DNA from: Saprospiraceae bacterium
GTDB lineage: Bacteria; Bacteroidota; Bacteroidia; Chitinophagales; Saprospiraceae
Length of the DNA stretch: 64,000 nt
Assembly: GCA_020630435.1 (NCBI GenBank)
Contig: JAHDBJ010000001.1
Span: 248,001 to 312,000 of the forward strand
Direction of reading: 5' to 3'
Below are positions 42,947-60,899 of the stretch, piece after piece. Each line of letters opens with the position of its first letter. Positions within the stretch are counted from its first letter, which is position 1. The notes under the pieces are model-generated. The model ran no database searches. It worked only from the letters and a program-made list of their open reading frames with translations, and was not told where the DNA came from. The position numbers and the translations under genes are program-made.

Positions 42947-44410
42947 ATGCAATTTAAAAATTTTTTAATATTCGCAATATTAGGATTATTTGTTCTAAAA
43001 TCAGAATCCATTTTTGCCCAAGTTAAAACAACTAATGATAAAGGTGAAAAAATTATCGTTTATCCTGATGGCTCATGGGAATACGATACAAGTGCTAATA
43101 CAAACACTTCTTCTCGCCCAGTTTCATCAGTTAAACTTAATGCAGAAAAAGCTGCTAAAAAAGAGGCTCAATTAAAAGCGATTGACGCACGAAGAGAAGA
43201 AGCGGAAATGATTAAAAAAGAACGCCAAGCTATTGTCGCTTTTGAACGATTTGAAAGAGATATTAACCTAGTGGATAAGAACACCTTGTCAGAAGCAAAG
43301 AAGGCTAAACAAGCACAACAACTTAAGTTTTTGAAAGAGCAATTAAAAAGAGCTGAAAATAATCGTAAAATAGCTTCGAAGAATGCTCGATTATATGAAA
43401 AAATGGTTGATATGCCTAAAGCTAAACGGGATAAGATGTTGGCAAAAATAGAGAAAACTGAAATAATTTCAAATGATATTGTAACCGTGGAGCATACATC
43501 AAGACCTAGTAAAACACCTAAGCCAACTAAACAGAAAAAAATTAAAGAACCTAAAGTAAAAGTGGCAGCCACTAATAAACCTGCAAAGGTAAAAAAGCCA
43601 AAAACGCCTAAACAGAAAAAGAACAAAGAACCTAAAACGAAAGTGGCAGCTACTAATAAACCGACAAAAGTAAAAAAGCCAAAAACACCTAAACCTGCAA
43701 AGGTAAAAAAGCCAAAAGTAACAGAAACAAGACCAGAACCTACTAGACCCAAACCAGTAAAAAGCGAAACCTTTAAAAATGAAGAAATTAGTGCCTCTTC
43801 GTACCAACCTCGCTTGATGAGTAATCCTGATCAAATTGCAGCACTTAAACAGCGTAGCATGACATTATCAAAATATAGGCGTACACCTGCAAGCCGCTTC
43901 CAAAATGGAGCAGTTAAAAATTGTAGCTTCCAATTTAATGAAAAAGATGATTTTTCAGGTACTTATAGAAGGGGCTTGGAATCCAGACAACTATTTACAT
44001 TTACGAATGAAGAACTGATTCCTTATTTAGATGGGAAAGACTATATAACTTGCAACGGTTATGTATCTGAAATATCGGGTGGACGGCTTATCTTATCCTT
44101 AACTTTTTATATTCAAACTATGGATGCTACTCGTCAATTTGGTCGTTTAGAAAAAGGTAGCCCACTTGGAATAAAATTAATTAACGGTAAAACGGTTACC
44201 CTACAAAATACAAAGGAAGATTTTGGTTCTGTTAATCGTTCTAGAGGACAGACGATTTACTATGCCTATTATTCTATTTCTCAACAACAAGCAAGGGAAT
44301 TGATGGAAAGCGAAGTAGATAAAATTAGAGTAGTTTGGAGTGCTGGATACGAAATATATGATATTTACGAACTGGATTTCTTTAAAGAACAGTTGGTGTG
44401 TTTTGATTAA
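42947..44410 (+). CDS. secreted protein with Lys/Pro-rich repetitive linker, 487 aa
   Basis: Signal peptide (about residues 1-24, FAILGLFVLKSESIFAQ), then VYPDGSWEYDT, a motif seen at the start of several Bacteroidota envelope proteins. A long charged helical part (residues 65-150) follows, then a Lys/Pro/Thr-rich repeated linker (about residues 190-257) and a C-terminal beta-rich domain (about 325-487, NCSFQFNEKDDFSGTYRRGL ... ISQQQARELMESEVDKIRVVWSAGYEIYDIYELDFF). No known family. The basic linker could bind acidic polymers or the cell wall; that is inference. Confidence 0.75.
   Translation: MQFKNFLIFAILGLFVLKSESIFAQVKTTNDKGEKIIVYPDGSWEYDTSANTNTSSRPVSSVKLNAEKAAKKEAQLKAIDARREEAEMIKKERQAIVAFERFERDINLVDKNTLSEAKKAKQAQQLKFLKEQLKRAENNRKIASKNARLYEKMVDMPKAKRDKMLAKIEKTEIISNDIVTVEHTSRPSKTPKPTKQKKIKEPKVKVAATNKPAKVKKPKTPKQKKNKEPKTKVAATNKPTKVKKPKTPKPAKVKKPKVTETRPEPTRPKPVKSETFKNEEISASSYQPRLMSNPDQIAALKQRSMTLSKYRRTPASRFQNGAVKNCSFQFNEKDDFSGTYRRGLESRQLFTFTNEELIPYLDGKDYITCNGYVSEISGGRLILSLTFYIQTMDATRQFGRLEKGSPLGIKLINGKTVTLQNTKEDFGSVNRSRGQTIYYAYYSISQQQARELMESEVDKIRVVWSAGYEIYDIYELDFFKEQLVCFD
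43514..43717 (+). repeat. Lys/Pro-rich coding repeat
   Basis: Three tandem partial units in the 487-aa protein, each starting T-P-K and ending KVKKPK: about 30, 27 and 11 residues. The first two share EPK-x-KVAATNKP-x-KVKKPK. The unit lengths differ by whole codons, as expected for in-frame slippage. Confidence 0.8.
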
Positions 44411-54394: not shown

Positions 54395-55954
54395 TTAACG
54401 GGGACTTAATTTGATAATGGGACAAATGATTTCCTCTAAAGAAATACCACCATGTTGGAAAGTATTTTTATAATAATTATTATAGTAATTATAATTATTA
54501 GGATACAAAAAATAACGATCTTCCTTAGCAAAAATATAGCTAGAACTAATATTTGGAGAAGGCAATAAAGCTTCTTTAGGATTGCGGATTGCTAGGACAT
54601 CCTTCTTTTCATAATTCAAATTTCTACCAACCTTATATCTTAAATTGGTTGTAGTTTCTTTATCTCCAATAACTTTTGAAGGCTGATTGACCCGTATTGT
54701 TCCATGATCCGTAGTAATGACTAGATTAATGTCTCGCTCTGCTAAGATTTGTAAAGCTTCCCATAATGGAGAGTGTAAAAACCAAGAACGGGTTAAAGAA
54801 CGATAAGCTCTTTCATCACTTGCTAGTTCCTTTAAAACCTCCATCTCTGTCCTAGCATGAGATAACATATCTATAAAGTTGTATACAATAACTGTAAAAT
54901 CATTATTTAAACAATTTAATATATTATCAAGCATTTGTTTGGCATTGCCAACATTTGTAATCTTTAGATAATCATATTTTATAGGATCTCTGAATGTTCT
55001 TTTTAATTGTTCTCCTAAAAGCTGTTTTTCAAATAGATTTTTACCTCCTTTGTCTGTATCATTACGCCACCATTGAGGATATATCTCTTGTATTTCAGAG
55101 GGCATTAATCCCGAAAAAATGGCGTTACGACTATACTGAGTAGAAGTAGGTAATATGCTATAAAATGAATCCTCTTCATCTACTCGATAAAATTCAGTAA
55201 GAATAGGTTCTAAGATTTTCCATTGGTCATACCTCAAATTATCAAGTAAAATCATTATTGTGGGAACATCAGCACTAATTTCTTCAAAAACCTTTTCTCG
55301 AAGTAAATTATGAGACATAACAGGAGCAGCATCTGTCTCATCATACAACCATGTTAAGTAATTATCAGCTACAAATTTTGAAAATTCTATATTGGCTTCA
55401 CTTTTTTGCATACCAAGTATCGAGCCCATTTCTGTAGTGTTTGAGTCATCTAGTTTAAGTTCCCAACCTACTATTTTGGTATAAATATTGACCCATTCTT
55501 GGTAGTTTAGTCGACTATTAATTTGTGCAAATATTTTTTTGAATTCTTGTTGATAATCTAATGTCGTTTTTTCTCTAACTAATCGTTTATTATCAATAAT
55601 CTTTTTTAAAGTCAATAAGATCTGGTTAGGGTTTACAGGCTTGATCAAATAATCGGTAATTTGAGCACCAATAGCCTCTTCCATTACATTTTCTGCTTCA
55701 TTTTTAGTAATCATTACAACAGGAAGTAAAGGGCTAATCTCTTTGATTTTTGAAAGTGTCTCCAAACCTGTCAAACCAGGCATACTTTCGTCCAAAAACA
55801 CAATATCAATGTCATTATATTCTTCACACTCTTCAATTGCATCATGTCCATTACTTACTGTAATAACATCATATCCTTTTTTTTCTAAGAATAGGATTTG
55901 GGGCTTTAATAAGTCAATTTCATCATCTGCCCAAAGTATTTTTACATTATCCAT
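54395..55954 (-). CDS. porX: type IX secretion response regulator PorX
   Basis: 519 residues. CheY-like receiver at residues 1-120 with acidic pocket ADDE (D10/D11), phosphoacceptor D55 in FLDESMPG, T82 region MITKNE and K in LIKPVNP. A linker helical domain is followed by the PglZ/alkaline-phosphatase-like domain (about 215-519) with IMILLDNLRYDQW, SILPTSTQYSRNAIFSG and VITTDHGTIRV as metal-site motifs. PorX with PorY and a sigma factor controls T9SS genes in Porphyromonas. Its presence indicates a type IX secretion system elsewhere; porY is not adjacent. Confidence 0.95.
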   Translation of the reverse strand: MDNVKILWADDEIDLLKPQILFLEKKGYDVITVSNGHDAIEECEEYNDIDIVFLDESMPGLTGLETLSKIKEISPLLPVVMITKNEAENVMEEAIGAQITDYLIKPVNPNQILLTLKKIIDNKRLVREKTTLDYQQEFKKIFAQINSRLNYQEWVNIYTKIVGWELKLDDSNTTEMGSILGMQKSEANIEFSKFVADNYLTWLYDETDAAPVMSHNLLREKVFEEISADVPTIMILLDNLRYDQWKILEPILTEFYRVDEEDSFYSILPTSTQYSRNAIFSGLMPSEIQEIYPQWWRNDTDKGGKNLFEKQLLGEQLKRTFRDPIKYDYLKITNVGNAKQMLDNILNCLNNDFTVIVYNFIDMLSHARTEMEVLKELASDERAYRSLTRSWFLHSPLWEALQILAERDINLVITTDHGTIRVNQPSKVIGDKETTTNLRYKVGRNLNYEKKDVLAIRNPKEALLPSPNISSSYIFAKEDRYFLYPNNYNYYNNYYKNTFQHGGISLEEIICPIIKLSPR

Positions 55955-56440: not shown

Positions 56441-57658
56441 ATGATAAATAAGAAGAAAATTTTCAATGATCCAGTTTATGGTTTTATCAGTATTCCATAT
56501 GATATTGTATATGACCTAATTGAGCATCCATATTTTCAAAGACTACGTAGAATTAAACAATTAGGTTTTACTGATTATGTTTACCCTTGCGCAAATCATA
56601 CTCGGTTTAGCCACGTTATTGGAGCTGTACACTTGATAAGTTTAACAATAAAAGTATTACGTTCAAAAGGAATACGTATTACAGAAGAAGAAGCCGAAGG
56701 AGTTACAATAGCGATTTTGCTTCATGATATTGGGCATGGGCCATTTTCTCATGCTTTAGAACATACAATAGTTAATGTTCACCACGAAGAATTATCCCTT
56801 TTGTATATGGAGTATTTCAATGAAGTATTTGACGGACGCCTTTCGTTGGCTATGCAGATATTTAAAAATACTTATAAAAAACCTTTTCTTCACCAGTTGG
56901 TATCAGGGCAATTAGACTTGGACAGAATGGACTATTTAAACCGAGACAGCTTTTTTACAGGAGTATATGAGGGCGTTATTGGTTATGATCGCATTATTAA
57001 AATGTTATCAGTCAAAAATGAAGAATTGGTTGTAGAAGAAAAAGGTATTTATTCTATTGAAAAATTCCTAATTGCAAGGAGATTAATGTATTGGCAGGTC
57101 TACTTGCATAAAACGGTTCTTTCGGCAGAGCAAATGTTGGTAAGATGCCTTAAACGAGCGAAATTGTTGGCATCACAAGGAATTGATTTTGATGTATCAG
57201 AAGCATTGAGGTATTTTTTATATAATAAATTGCCTTATAAAAATAGTTCTACTCAAAAAAATCAGCTCCTTGCCAAATTTGCTGAATTAGATGATTATGA
57301 TGTGGTGTCTGCGATAAAAATATTTCAATATTCAGATGATAAAACTTTGTCATATTTGGCAGAATCCCTATTGTATAGGAAATTATTTAAATGTGAGTTA
57401 AAAAATAGACCTTTTGAGCGTGACTATATAGATAACTTGCGTCAAAAATTGGAGGCTGTTTTTGCTGAAAAAATTTCAGAGGAATTTTTGGTTTTTGAAG
57501 GGAATGAAAGTAATACAGCTTATATAAAGAATAAAGACGAAATTAAGATACTATATAAGGATGGTTCAGTATTACCAATATCTGAAATATCTGAAATGGG
57601 ATTACAATCGAAAAGAATTTTGAAATATTATTTATGTTATCCCAAAACAATAGTGTAA
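56441..57658 (+). CDS. HD superfamily phosphohydrolase (dGTPase/SAMHD1-like)
   Basis: 405 residues. The HD metal site is complete: HTRFSHVIGAVHL (H), AILLHDIGHGPFSHALEHTI (HD, then H) and QLDLDRMDYLNRDSFFTGV (D). The start FNDPVYGFISIPYDIVYDLIEHPYFQRLRRIKQLG is typical of the YwfO/SAMHD1-like group, which hydrolyse nucleoside triphosphates or related phosphomonoesters. Exact substrate unknown. Cytoplasmic; monocistronic by context. Confidence 0.93.
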   Translation: MINKKKIFNDPVYGFISIPYDIVYDLIEHPYFQRLRRIKQLGFTDYVYPCANHTRFSHVIGAVHLISLTIKVLRSKGIRITEEEAEGVTIAILLHDIGHGPFSHALEHTIVNVHHEELSLLYMEYFNEVFDGRLSLAMQIFKNTYKKPFLHQLVSGQLDLDRMDYLNRDSFFTGVYEGVIGYDRIIKMLSVKNEELVVEEKGIYSIEKFLIARRLMYWQVYLHKTVLSAEQMLVRCLKRAKLLASQGIDFDVSEALRYFLYNKLPYKNSSTQKNQLLAKFAELDDYDVVSAIKIFQYSDDKTLSYLAESLLYRKLFKCELKNRPFERDYIDNLRQKLEAVFAEKISEEFLVFEGNESNTAYIKNKDEIKILYKDGSVLPISEISEMGLQSKRILKYYLCYPKTIV

Positions 57659-57857: not shown

Positions 57858-60800
57858 ATGAAAAGATTGAACCTAATTCTTGGTGTTGCTTTCATGCTAT
57901 TCTCAATCATAGCAGTAGCACAACCTGGGTTTGATGCTCCAATCGAGCGTGAGCCAGGAAAGTGTTATGCAAAATGTATGATTGCAGATGAGTATGAGAC
58001 TATCACTGAGACAGTCGAAACTAAAGCTGCTAGTGTTCGCACAGAGGTTGTACCTGCACAATATGGAACTGAGCAAGAACAAGTAGTAACTCAAGAGGCT
58101 TCTACTCGTGTTATTGCTGTACCAGCAGAGTATGAGACTGTAACTGAGCAGTATGAAAAAACGCCTGCGTCTTCTCGTTTAACTGCTGTACCAGCACAAT
58201 ATGAGACAGCAACAGAGCAAGTTATGACTAAACCAGAATCTTCTCGTTTAACTACAGTACCTGCTCAATACGAGACAGCAACGGAACAAGTTATGATTCA
58301 ACCAGAATCTTCTCGTTTAATAGCTGTACCAGCAGAGTATGAGACTGTAACTGAGCAAGTATTAGTTCAGCCAGAATCTTCTCGTTTGATTACTGTGCCA
58401 GCTCAATATGAGACGGCAACTGAGCAAGTGATGACTAAGCCAGCATCTTCTCGTTTAGTAGCTGTACCAGCACAATTCGAAAGTGCAACTGAGCAAGTTA
58501 TGGTTAAGCCAGAGTCAACTCGTTTGACTACAGTGCCAGCTCAATATGAGACGGCAACTGAGCAAGTTATGGTTAAGCCAGAATCAACTCGTTTGATTGC
58601 AGTACCAGCTCAATATGAGACGGCAACTGAACAAGTTATGGTTAAGCCAGAGTCAACTCGTTTGATTACAGTACCAGCTCAATATGAAGCAGCAACTGAG
58701 CAAGTGATGACTGCACCTGCGTCTTCTCGTTTGATTGCAGTACCTGCACAATATGAGACGGCAACTGAGCAAGTGATGACTAAAGCTGAATACACTCGTT
58801 TGACTACAGTGCCAGCTCAATATGAGACGGCAACTGAGCAAGTGATGACTAAGCCAGCATCTTCTCGTTTGATTGCAGTACCTGCACAATATGAGACAGC
58901 AACTGAGCAAGTTATGACTAAAGCAGAGTCTACTGTTTTAACTACAGTACCTGCACAATATGAAACGACAACTGAGCAAGTGATGACTAAGCCAGCATCT
59001 TCTCGTTTGATTGCAGTACCTGCACAATATGAGACAGCAACTGAGCAAGTTATGACTAGACCAGAATCTTCTCGTTTGATTACTGTACCTGCTGAGTATG
59101 AAACTACTACTGAGCAAGTTATGGTTGAAGAGGAGTCTAAGCGTGTTGTTGCAGTACCAGCTCAATATGAGACGGTATCTGAGCAATATGAAATCAAGCC
59201 TGCGTCTTCTAGAATTGTTGCTAAACAGCCACAATTCAAAACTGAAACTGAGCGTATCGAGACTCAACCTGCTACAACTAAATGGGTTAAGCGTAAAGCA
59301 GACAGAAATTGTCTTTCTGCCGATCCAAATGACTGTTTAGTTTGGTGTTTAGTTGAAGTACCAGCTCAATATAGAACAGTGACTAGAAGAGTAAATATGG
59401 GTTGTGACGGTTCTGGTGTTGCAGATTCAGGATGTTCTGAAACTGTAGCTATTCCAGCTGAATATGGTACTCGTACTAGAAGAGTGGTAAAAACTCCTGC
59501 AACGACTCGTGAAGAAGTTATTCCTGCAAAATTTGCTACAATAACTCGTAGAGTAATTAAAACTCCTGCAACGACTCGTGAAGAGGTTATTCCTGCTCAA
59601 TATAAAACGGTAACAGTACAAAGAATGACTGCACCTGCATCTACTCGTGAGGAAGCGATTCCTGCACAGTACAAAACGGTAACAGTTAAAAGAATGACTG
59701 CTCCTGCGACTACGCAAGAAAGAGTTGTTCCTGCTGAATACACAACAGTGCAAGTGAAAAGATTAGTTGCACCTGCATCTACTCGTGAGGAAGCGATTCC
59801 TGCACAGTATAAGACAGTAACAGTACAAAGAATGACTGCTCCTGCGTCTACTCGTGAGGAGGTTGTTCCTGCACAATATTCTACTGTACAAGTACAAAGA
59901 TTAGTTGCACCTGCATCTACTCGTGAGGAAGCGATTCCTGCACAGTATACTACAGTAACAGTACAAAGAATGACTGCTCCAGCGACTACTCGTGAGGAAG
60001 TTATTCCTGCTGTGTACAAAACTGTACAAGTACAAAGATTAGTTGCACCTGCATCTACTCGTGAGGAAGTTATTCCTGCACAGTACAAAACAGTAACAGT
60101 TAAGAGAATGAGCGCACCTGCGTCTACTCGTGAGGAAGTTGTTCCTGCTGTATACAAAACTGTAACAGTACAAAGGTTGACTGCACCTGCATCTACTCGT
60201 CAGGAAGAAATTCCTGCACAGTATACTACTGTACAAGTACAAAGAATGACTGCACCTGCATCTACTCGTGAGGAAATTATTCCTGCACAGTACAAAACGG
60301 TAACAGTTAGAAGAGTAAAAGTTCCTGCAACGACTCGTCAGGAAGTTGTTCCTGCACAGTATGCAACGGTACAAGTACAAAGGATGACTGCTCCAGCGAC
60401 TACTCGTGAAGAAGTTATTCCTGCACAGTATACTACTGTACAAGTACAAAGGATGACTGCTCCAGCAAGTACATCAGAGACTGCTGTTCCTGCAGAATAT
60501 GCAACTCGTACTATCAGAAGAGTGAAAACTCCTGCATCTTTCCGTACAGAAGAAATCCCTGCTCAATACAAAACTCAAACGAGAAGAATATTGACTGCTC
60601 CAGCTACTACACGTACTATCGACGTACCTGCGGAGTACCAAACAATTACTAAGCGTCGTTTAGTAAGACAAGGAGGATTTTCTGAGTGGAGAGAAGTACT
60701 TTGTGGATCACAAGTAACTAGCTACACAATTCGTCAAGTTCAAGATGCTCTTAGAAGTCGTGGATACGACCCAGGACCATCTGATGACCAAATGGGTGCT

Positions 60801-60899
60801 AGAACTAAAGCTGCTCTTGTTAAATTCCAAAAAGACAATGGTTTACCAATCGGTCAATTGGATTTTGAGACATTAAGAGCGTTAGGTGTTAAGTATTAA
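57858..60899 (+). CDS. giant 23-residue-repeat protein with C-terminal peptidoglycan-binding domain
   Basis: 1013 residues. Signal peptide (1-22), a short EPGKCYAKC segment, then 37 repeats of a 23-residue unit beginning [VI]-P-A-[QE]-Y and a 38th partial one. Repeats 1-19 are acidic-type (VPAQYETATEQVMTKPESS), 21-37 basic-type (IPAQYKTVTVQRMTAPAST). Between them are extended units 19-20 holding five cysteines (C485, C493, C497, C516, C526). Others are C36, C40 and C949, and no canonical 23-residue unit has one. The last ~60 residues (YTIRQVQDALRSRGYDPG ... ALVKFQKDNGLPIG) are a PG_binding_1 domain, so the protein is probably tethered to the wall. I recall shorter Flavobacterial relatives with the same Cys core and an OmpA domain; not verified. 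Confidence 0.93.
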   Translation: MKRLNLILGVAFMLFSIIAVAQPGFDAPIEREPGKCYAKCMIADEYETITETVETKAASVRTEVVPAQYGTEQEQVVTQEASTRVIAVPAEYETVTEQYEKTPASSRLTAVPAQYETATEQVMTKPESSRLTTVPAQYETATEQVMIQPESSRLIAVPAEYETVTEQVLVQPESSRLITVPAQYETATEQVMTKPASSRLVAVPAQFESATEQVMVKPESTRLTTVPAQYETATEQVMVKPESTRLIAVPAQYETATEQVMVKPESTRLITVPAQYEAATEQVMTAPASSRLIAVPAQYETATEQVMTKAEYTRLTTVPAQYETATEQVMTKPASSRLIAVPAQYETATEQVMTKAESTVLTTVPAQYETTTEQVMTKPASSRLIAVPAQYETATEQVMTRPESSRLITVPAEYETTTEQVMVEEESKRVVAVPAQYETVSEQYEIKPASSRIVAKQPQFKTETERIETQPATTKWVKRKADRNCLSADPNDCLVWCLVEVPAQYRTVTRRVNMGCDGSGVADSGCSETVAIPAEYGTRTRRVVKTPATTREEVIPAKFATITRRVIKTPATTREEVIPAQYKTVTVQRMTAPASTREEAIPAQYKTVTVKRMTAPATTQERVVPAEYTTVQVKRLVAPASTREEAIPAQYKTVTVQRMTAPASTREEVVPAQYSTVQVQRLVAPASTREEAIPAQYTTVTVQRMTAPATTREEVIPAVYKTVQVQRLVAPASTREEVIPAQYKTVTVKRMSAPASTREEVVPAVYKTVTVQRLTAPASTRQEEIPAQYTTVQVQRMTAPASTREEIIPAQYKTVTVRRVKVPATTRQEVVPAQYATVQVQRMTAPATTREEVIPAQYTTVQVQRMTAPASTSETAVPAEYATRTIRRVKTPASFRTEEIPAQYKTQTRRILTAPATTRTIDVPAEYQTITKRRLVRQGGFSEWREVLCGSQVTSYTIRQVQDALRSRGYDPGPSDDQMGARTKAALVKFQKDNGLPIGQLDFETLRALGVKY
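57981..59291 (+). repeat. 69-bp coding repeat array A (acidic type)
   Basis: Nineteen consecutive 23-codon units (residues 42-478). Consensus VPAQYETATEQVMTKPxSSRLxx, with the last two positions alternating between TT (or IT) and IA in neighbouring units 7-16, which means a two-unit, 138-bp higher-order period. The 69-bp register is never broken by an insertion or deletion. Confidence 0.95.
59358..60623 (+). repeat. 69-bp coding repeat array B (basic type)
   Basis: Eighteen units (residues 501-922), the first lengthened to 31 residues by a Cys/Gly-rich insert and the rest exactly 23. Consensus IPAQYKTVTVQRMTAPASTREEV. Units 25-32 largely alternate TVTVQRM with TVQVQRL, again a two-unit period. 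The opposite strand is also open over much of this array, a side effect of the codon bias. Confidence 0.95.

Follow-up and report, generated by a model that had tools for sequence, protein, structure and literature searches.

The described systems closest to the protein reported here are the OmpA-domain and PG_binding_1 wall tethers of Gram-negative envelopes, the triple β-spiral shafts of adenovirus and reovirus fibres, the extended hairpins of lysenin/aerolysin-type pore proteins and the fold-back coiled-coil arms of SMC and Rad50 (PMC5344682, PMC6969161). The protein itself, 1013 amino acids (aa) long, is encoded by an open reading frame (ORF) at 57858..60899 (+) of a 64,000-nucleotide stretch of a Saprospiraceae bacterium (assembly GCA_020630435.1, contig JAHDBJ010000001.1, positions 248,001 to 312,000), referred to below as the window. 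Its bulk consists of two arms of 23-residue units, equal in number and mirrored in type around a cysteine-bearing hinge, and we consider it very probable, from sequence statistics and structure models, that it forms a wall-anchored stalk made of one very long antiparallel two-stranded β-ribbon folded back at that hinge. No description of the family, or of any mirrored two-arm β-repeat, was found among the results listed by searches of open-licence PMC papers, which does not prove its absence from print.

Two matched arms around a cysteine hinge

The frame, whose start is similar in its relatives, opens with a signal peptide that by eye is of the Sec/signal peptidase I type (MKRLNL...AVA followed by QPG; 57858..57920, +) and continues with the N-terminal base motif EPGKCYAKC, recognised by column conservation (Cys36 and Cys40; 57951..57977, +), a left arm of 19 units of 23 aa with a net charge of -24 (residues 43-479; 57984..59294, +), the 22-residue tip hinge KADRNCLSADPNDCLVWCLVEV (residues 480-501, with Cys485, 493 and 497; 59295..59360, +), a right arm of 19 units with a net charge of +25 (residues 502-946; 59361..60695, +), the C-terminal base motif GGFSEWREVLCG (Cys949; 60672..60707, +) and a PG_binding_1 domain (PF01471, E 1.8e-11; residues 958-1009; 60729..60884, +), which scores 44.5 bits against a curated cut-off of 23. 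A 23-residue profile made from family sequences, that of the window among them, tiles 37 units onto the protein, whereas 200 residue-shuffled versions give 0.015 units on average and never more than 1. The 38th unit is right unit 1, which carries an 8-residue insert between two cysteines (the Cys516-Cys526 loop; 59403..59435, +). The hinge lies at the exact centre of the array, with 437 aa to its left and 445 aa to its right, and at the DNA level the array (58101-60467) has a 138-bp super-period in both arms. An earlier note, made from the DNA letters, had described a real protein in its length, its roughly 38 repeats, its signal-peptide-like N-terminus and its PG_binding_1 end; the almost unbroken register that it saw over residues 42-937 is instead 19 units, a three-Cys segment and 19 further units. 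It overlooked the two matched arms, acidic then basic, whose mirror rule is the key finding of this analysis.

The motifs that bound the arms are strictly conserved. In 22 sequences, and also in eight short members, the G, C, Y, A, K and C columns of the N-terminal base motif and the W and C columns of the C-terminal one are invariant, and in 60 sequences the same holds for the hinge columns C, L, P, D, C, V, W and C, with a spacing of C-x7-C-x3-C. The cysteine count is odd both at the base and at the hinge, three in each case.

The equality of the arms is a property of the family. Across 123 parsed proteins, window included, which have 4-28 units per arm and either a PG_binding_1 or an OmpA end, 104 have the same number of units in both arms and 115 have numbers that differ by no more than one; among the 99 without an insert of 80 aa or more, the numbers are the same in 93. 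Such inserts are not counted as units, so that several long proteins given as 21:22 may be 22:22. In a first set of 87 complete proteins, in which both end anchors and the hinge were found by pattern and from which truncated or unanchored ORFs were excluded, left and right arm lengths correlate at 0.98, and they differ by at most 11 aa in 64 proteins and by at most 23 aa in 74; when the right arms were shuffled among the 87 proteins 10,000 times, a difference of at most 11 aa was reached by 6.9 proteins on average and by 19 at most. The left arm is negatively charged in 79 of the 87 and the right arm positively charged in 79. In a second set, where 38 of 42 loci were parsed (all except L122, L124, L161 and L165), 35 differ by at most 11 residues, the exceptions being L117 (12 residues) and L115 and L116, which by eye have an OmpA-like domain inserted in the right arm. 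Insertions may also affect both arms, as in L040, with OmpA-like domains by eye, and in L049 and L082, with inserts of over 100 aa.

Arm length changes often, the two halves mostly remaining matched. On a tree of two flanking genes, the HD-domain-like gene and that of PorX (47 rows, namely the window and the 46 loci with parsed arms out of 51 that have both neighbours), left-arm length, counted in units with inserts included, requires at least 27 changes. The window's own clade comprises 29 rows, 26 of them with equal arms, and the six nearest to the window have 19, 18, 9, 8, 7 and 7 units per arm, matched in all of them.

Mirrored unit types and residue register

Of the 87 complete proteins, 49 have exactly equal arms, 40 remain after dropping those at least 85% identical, and 31 of these have N of at least 7, where N is the number of units per arm; because only equal-arm proteins enter, the tests that follow are conditioned on equal arms. 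Where a left unit i has Tyr or Phe at position 11, its mirror in the right arm, unit N+1-i, has Arg at position 7. Among the 40 proteins, 33 are informative in having at least one of these two features, and in 23 of the 33 the two mirrored sets are identical. The phi coefficient reaches 0.69 at the mirror offset, with no other offset above 0.21 (for interior units 3 to N-3, 0.66 against 0.36 at most). The interior count of 28 was reached by none of 20,000 permutations (mean 17.2, maximum 24), a test that excluded L069 and L095, where the sets mismatch because nearly all of the right arm has Arg. Individual proteins make the pattern tangible: in L019 the left positions 3-10, 13 and 18, and in L094 the left positions 4-12 and 15, correspond to ten mirrored right positions each.

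The correspondence extends to whole unit types. By eye, L019 has five types per arm, in perfect mirror order across units 3-17, in which left ETYESVAPS faces right PGQTATR, YEIEPA faces PAKMGTR, VDNGDA faces PGTSST, EQYEIKPAST faces PAQYGTRTVRKL and EQVLVAEAST faces PARYETISKK. In the OmpA-ended relative L152, again by eye, right units that are one residue short face the unusual left units 4, 7 and 10. In the window alone, the state of left position 16 (Ala or not) and that of right position 22 (Val/Ile or not) agree in 17 of 17 units, perfectly only at the offset of the residue register given below among offsets -6 to +4; both positions had been selected in a scan of the whole family, the window's protein among them.

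Covariation between the arms was centred within each protein and computed for the interior units of the 31 proteins. Its highest values are z 19.3 at i+j=N+1 and z 9.2 at i+j=N, and it is near zero at offsets of 4 and more; with a stricter interior the values are 16.0 at N+1, 10.2 at N, 6.1 at N+2 and 0.0 at N+3. Both peaks are one and the same antidiagonal, x+y=23(N-1)+17 (K=17), along which the mean Z is 4.2 and 10 of 23 position pairs exceed 4; in a scan of K from -8 to 44, no values other than K=11 and K=13-21 give a mean Z above 1. The i+j=N+1 peak reflects pairing of the long strands and the i+j=N peak that of the short ones, which makes the hinge strand the counterpart of the final short strand of the left arm; extrapolating the register to the other end would pair the N-terminal CYAKC strand with the C-terminal WREVLC strand. 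At the level of the sequences, we regard the matched arms, the mirrored unit types and the register as statistically established.

A predicted fold-back ribbon and its rivals

The two-stranded β-ribbon itself is a prediction. An AlphaFold model of a relative with 8+8 units (L059, 22 sequences) has a predicted local distance difference test (pLDDT) score of 75.5, a predicted template modelling score (pTM) of 0.34 and alternating 12- and 7-residue strands, and a model of the window's tip (residues 365-625, 60 sequences) reaches a pLDDT of 87.3 (90 or higher for 152 of the 261 residues) and a pTM of 0.32. The tip model contains ten left and ten right strands whose ends are exactly mirrored at K=17: the pairs 95-106/140-151 and 109-115/131-137 sum to 246, and the other eight pairs sum to 254 because of the 8-residue loop. 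Taken together, the high local confidence, the low pTM and the large root-mean-square deviation (rmsd) in fold searches, which is tens of angstroms in most listed superpositions of the tip model, suggest a very extended ribbon.

No PDB structure gave a good match in these searches. With the first model, high-probability matches were obtained for the PG-binding domain only (SleB, SltB and CtpB), and with the tip model none of 391 PDB matches lay at E ≤ 0.001 (best 1.3e-3), while a viral structure library gave 2 of 436, with template modelling (TM) scores of 0.15 and 0.08. A second-look fold search placed 7 of 989 chains at Z ≥ 2, the best being the phi29 collar (Z 3.6, 146 residues aligned, rmsd 16), and pore-toxin chains aligned over 42-116 residues at Z 2.0-2.5. 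In the alignment to the lysenin hairpin (Z 2.2, 55 residues), a single 63-residue stretch takes up both ends of the model (2 to 251), as expected if the ends of the modelled fragment are adjacent. By sequence, the arms, and with them the 23-residue unit, match Pfam and NCBIfam models only below the cut-offs of these, and 4u06, the sole match to a solved structure at E ≤ 1 (E 0.0026), was judged to be due to chance.

In the fold-back ribbon, the chain would leave the base through the acidic left arm, turn at the Cys-rich hinge and return through the basic right arm, so placing left residue x beside right residue 23(N-1)+17-x along the full length. Each 23-residue unit would contribute a 12-residue and a 7-residue strand between Pro-Ala breaks, and every left strand would pair with its mirror strand in the right arm. 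As the chain folds back, the CYAKC motif, the WREVLC motif and the PG_binding_1 domain would come together at the base, with the Cys hinge at the far tip. The opposite charges of the arms would favour left-right pairing, and the periodic prolines and charges could shield the exposed strand edges from other ribbons.

Several observations weigh against this reading or limit it. Unit counts are unequal in 19 of the 123 proteins, as in L037 (23:16), and six cases occur without large inserts (L018, 17:18; L021, 17:16; L024, 21:20; L048, 10:9; L052, 9:8; L033, 14:16), which may be intermediates or assembly errors; in the insert-bearing clade of 18 rows, arm lengths differ by more than one unit in 8 and by no more than that in the other 10. 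Ten of the 33 informative proteins do not have identical Tyr/Arg sets, and covariation is also present at i+j=N+2 and N+3 (z 6.4 and 4.2). On the structural side, strand pairing in the AlphaFold model was read from the mirrored strand ends, prediction and covariation rest on the same sequences, with the low pTM (0.32-0.34) the ribbon could be wound or bundled, and a ribbon of this length had no solved counterpart in the fold searches.

Winding is the point at which the nearest rival, which overlaps with the fold-back ribbon, departs from it. The paired ribbon could coil up as a compact helical sandwich of about 1 nm per unit, in effect an elongated antiparallel double-stranded β-helix, with a whole rod of only about 20 nm; lone two-stranded ribbons are rarely stable, and the regular alternation of 12- and 7-residue strands, with corners at Pro-Ala, could allow wrapping into two faces. 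However, a second covariation ladder between successive turns was looked for and not clearly seen, and the tens-of-angstroms superpositions would fit a very extended model. We think the wound form unlikely. Lower still we place an antiparallel domain-swapped dimer, in which the left arm of one chain would pair with the right arm of a second; the rod would double in length and, being anchored to the wall at both ends, would connect two points of it. This dimer satisfies the matched arms and the x+y register equally well, which is a further point against the single-chain ribbon, and the odd cysteine numbers at base and hinge could leave inter-chain bonds; against it, the short conserved hinge resembles a closed turn, and a single-chain prediction puts the mirrored strands within one chain. 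A little less probable again is that each arm folds on itself as a flat β-hairpin meander and the two sheets stack face to face. Two strands per 23-residue unit with short turns, and a weak within-unit antidiagonal coupling at p+q of about 29-32, are compatible with such meanders, whereas the cross-arm mean Z of 4.2 compares with at most 2.6 (left) and 1.2 (right) within units, the short-strand cross-arm signal involves residues of both alternations, the strand ends of the model mirror each other between arms, including the shortened pair 86-91/163-168, and pTM is low.

We consider it extremely improbable that the long array reflects faulty assembly or a neutral expansion of the repeats devoid of structural meaning. 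The genome is a draft of 70 contigs and tandem repeats are prone to collapse and expansion, but a collapse in one arm would destroy the equal counts and the mirrored unit types, and the matched-arm rule holds across many other assemblies. The earlier note had allowed for collapse or expansion of the array; with each arm serving as a control on the unit number and unit types of the other, this is unlikely. A simple tandem array of about 38 equivalent units was rejected, as left and right units are of different types and charge and stand in mirror relation.

For the fold-back ribbon, a straight path at 0.33 nm per residue would amount to up to about 7.6 nm per unit and about 145 nm for the window's protein, since the end-to-end length, if the arms pair, is set by 19 unit pairs and not by 38 units in line. 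Such a length greatly exceeds the depth of the periplasm, so that a long member would have to lie along the wall, be bent or wound, or reach outside. A long peptidoglycan-fixed stalk is plausible: the base would bind peptidoglycan in the periplasm, and the ribbon would act as a spacer or tether that holds the tip at a distance, its length being tuned by the addition of matched unit pairs. We hold the chances of this periplasmic role to be evenly balanced, and exposure at the surface to be rather unlikely. By eye, the N-terminus has no lipobox, and neither an outer-membrane barrel nor a lipid anchor was seen in the protein. Export across the outer membrane finds no support, with no type IX sorting domain among the four NCBIfam models listed at E ≤ 1 and a chain that ends in PG_binding_1.

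We lean somewhat towards a broader proposal, in which the protein would be a zipper with a pairing code: each left-unit type would recognise one right-unit type, the shaft would grow by the concerted gain of matched pairs, and the product would be the longest self-paired two-stranded β-ribbon known, a wall-anchored ruler with a cysteine tip. If the ribbon is real, it represents a new way to build a long, monomeric and self-registering protein rod, in which, zip-like, pair number sets the length and unit-type matching sets the register. It would then offer engineers a modular β-ribbon with pairing units of several types, and envelope biologists an uncharacterised wall-anchored stalk present in several families of one phylum. 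The concerted gain and loss of repeats in two distant halves of one gene would pose a testable evolutionary puzzle, and the mirror rule can serve as an internal checksum when such repeats are assembled.

Relatives, genomic surroundings and known systems

A scan of genome contigs, from which the best 80 of 86 matches were kept, yielded 79 loci, mainly from uncultured Saprospiraceae, with Aureispira and some Chitinophagales or unplaced records. The ORFs of the relatives span 269-1712 aa, some being cut by contig ends. Within the order of the window, 34 of 60 genomes have a match, the window's own included; a phylum-wide draw gave matches at E ≤ 0.001 in 32 of 395 genomes, many through the wall-binding domain alone, and at E ≤ 1e-20 in 14. 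One other family of the same class, which judging from its proteins we take to be flavobacterial, matches in 102 of 299 genomes. Of 34 loci from that family 32 were parsed, 31 of them OmpA-ended by a simple motif test and one left unassigned. Further OmpA-ended proteins are L118, from a distant family, and L125 and L127, which belong to the window's own family. These OmpA-ended relatives share with the window the EPGKCY motif, the Cys hinge, the 23-aa units and the W.E.C base motif and differ from it at the C-terminus, where the window has PG_binding_1; no OmpA model is among the four Pfam families listed for the window's protein.

The earlier note had assumed flavobacterial relatives with this core, an OmpA domain and a handful of units. 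OmpA-ended relatives do exist and many are 4+4, although others have 8, 11, 12, 14 or 22 units per arm: among the 27 parsed of L148-L176, eight proteins have 4 units per arm, thirteen have 8, five have 12 and one has 14, as if pairs had been gained in blocks of four, and an OmpA-ended relative from a distant family has 22+22 units in 1248 aa. In L152, blocks of three units are repeated in both arms. The idea that the window's protein represents an exceptional expansion is not supported, given the 22+22 protein and Saprospiraceae relatives of up to 1712 aa.

Paralogues accompany several members. Tandem gene pairs, each a member and a short 5+5 or 4+4 paralogue, are found at L019:9481-10509, L024:9754-10779, L079, L080 and L081, and in the last three one of the two genes lacks the PG-binding domain. 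The genome of the window itself encodes a 771-aa paralogue (L144, G000:C66) with about 6+6 units by eye; it keeps the hinge and the PG-binding end, and unit 5 of either arm is extended by a long insert rich in Gly, Ser, Asn and Pro. The same genome encodes a 487-aa protein (L146:2071-3534, -; G000:C46) that ends in the base module, reading GSCYARC ... SSTKWV ... SSEWAEVIC, and a PG-binding domain, without a repeat array; this protein, presumably akin to M56/BlaR1-type membrane peptidases, may reveal what the base module does alone. Outside bacteria, partial matches of 32-33% identity in four Pseudomonas phages were set aside as shared composition; in one of them, vB_PaeP_YA3, a hypothetical protein (L187:2077-3426) matches the right arm at 33%, probably also through composition.

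The position of the repeat gene is conserved, near an HD-domain-like gene and PorX. In the window the former lies upstream (56441..57658, +), a homologue is present in the fetched stretch of 63 of the 79 loci, and it is directly upstream of the repeat gene in the 25 loci listed; the HD-domain name is our assumption, NCBIfam showing a weak dGTPase-type match only. The type IX secretion response regulator PorX (54395..55954, -) is identified by NF052313 at 813 bits against a cut-off of 300 and has homologues in the fetched stretch of 51 of the 79 loci. The guanine-plus-cytosine content of the repeat gene is 42.5%, compared with 33% for the window. Elsewhere in the window, positions 43527-43694 hold 2.1 copies of an 81-bp tandem repeat with an A-rich consensus.

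Like the OmpA-domain and PG_binding_1 tethers of Gram-negative envelopes, the protein appears to be exported and has a C-terminal peptidoglycan-binding domain, whereas most of its length is taken up by a repeat shaft of two mirrored arms, whose tip and base carry conserved Cys motifs. Pore hairpins of the lysenin/aerolysin type are likewise extended and were prominent among the weak fold-search matches (E 0.03-0.9, TM 0.05-0.11), but they are not known to have its 23-residue repeats or its mirror code. With SMC and Rad50 it would share a principle, not homology: arms of matched length that fold at a hinge so that their ends meet. Unlike those α-helical proteins, it would be made of β-strand units, its arms being predicted as all-β, and would be exported and wall-anchored, with no ATPase. 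With the triple β-spiral shafts of adenovirus and reovirus fibres it would share short β-repeats and turns in a long thin shaft; those fibres are trimers, whereas here the partners would be the two arms of one chain, matched unit by unit in mirror order.

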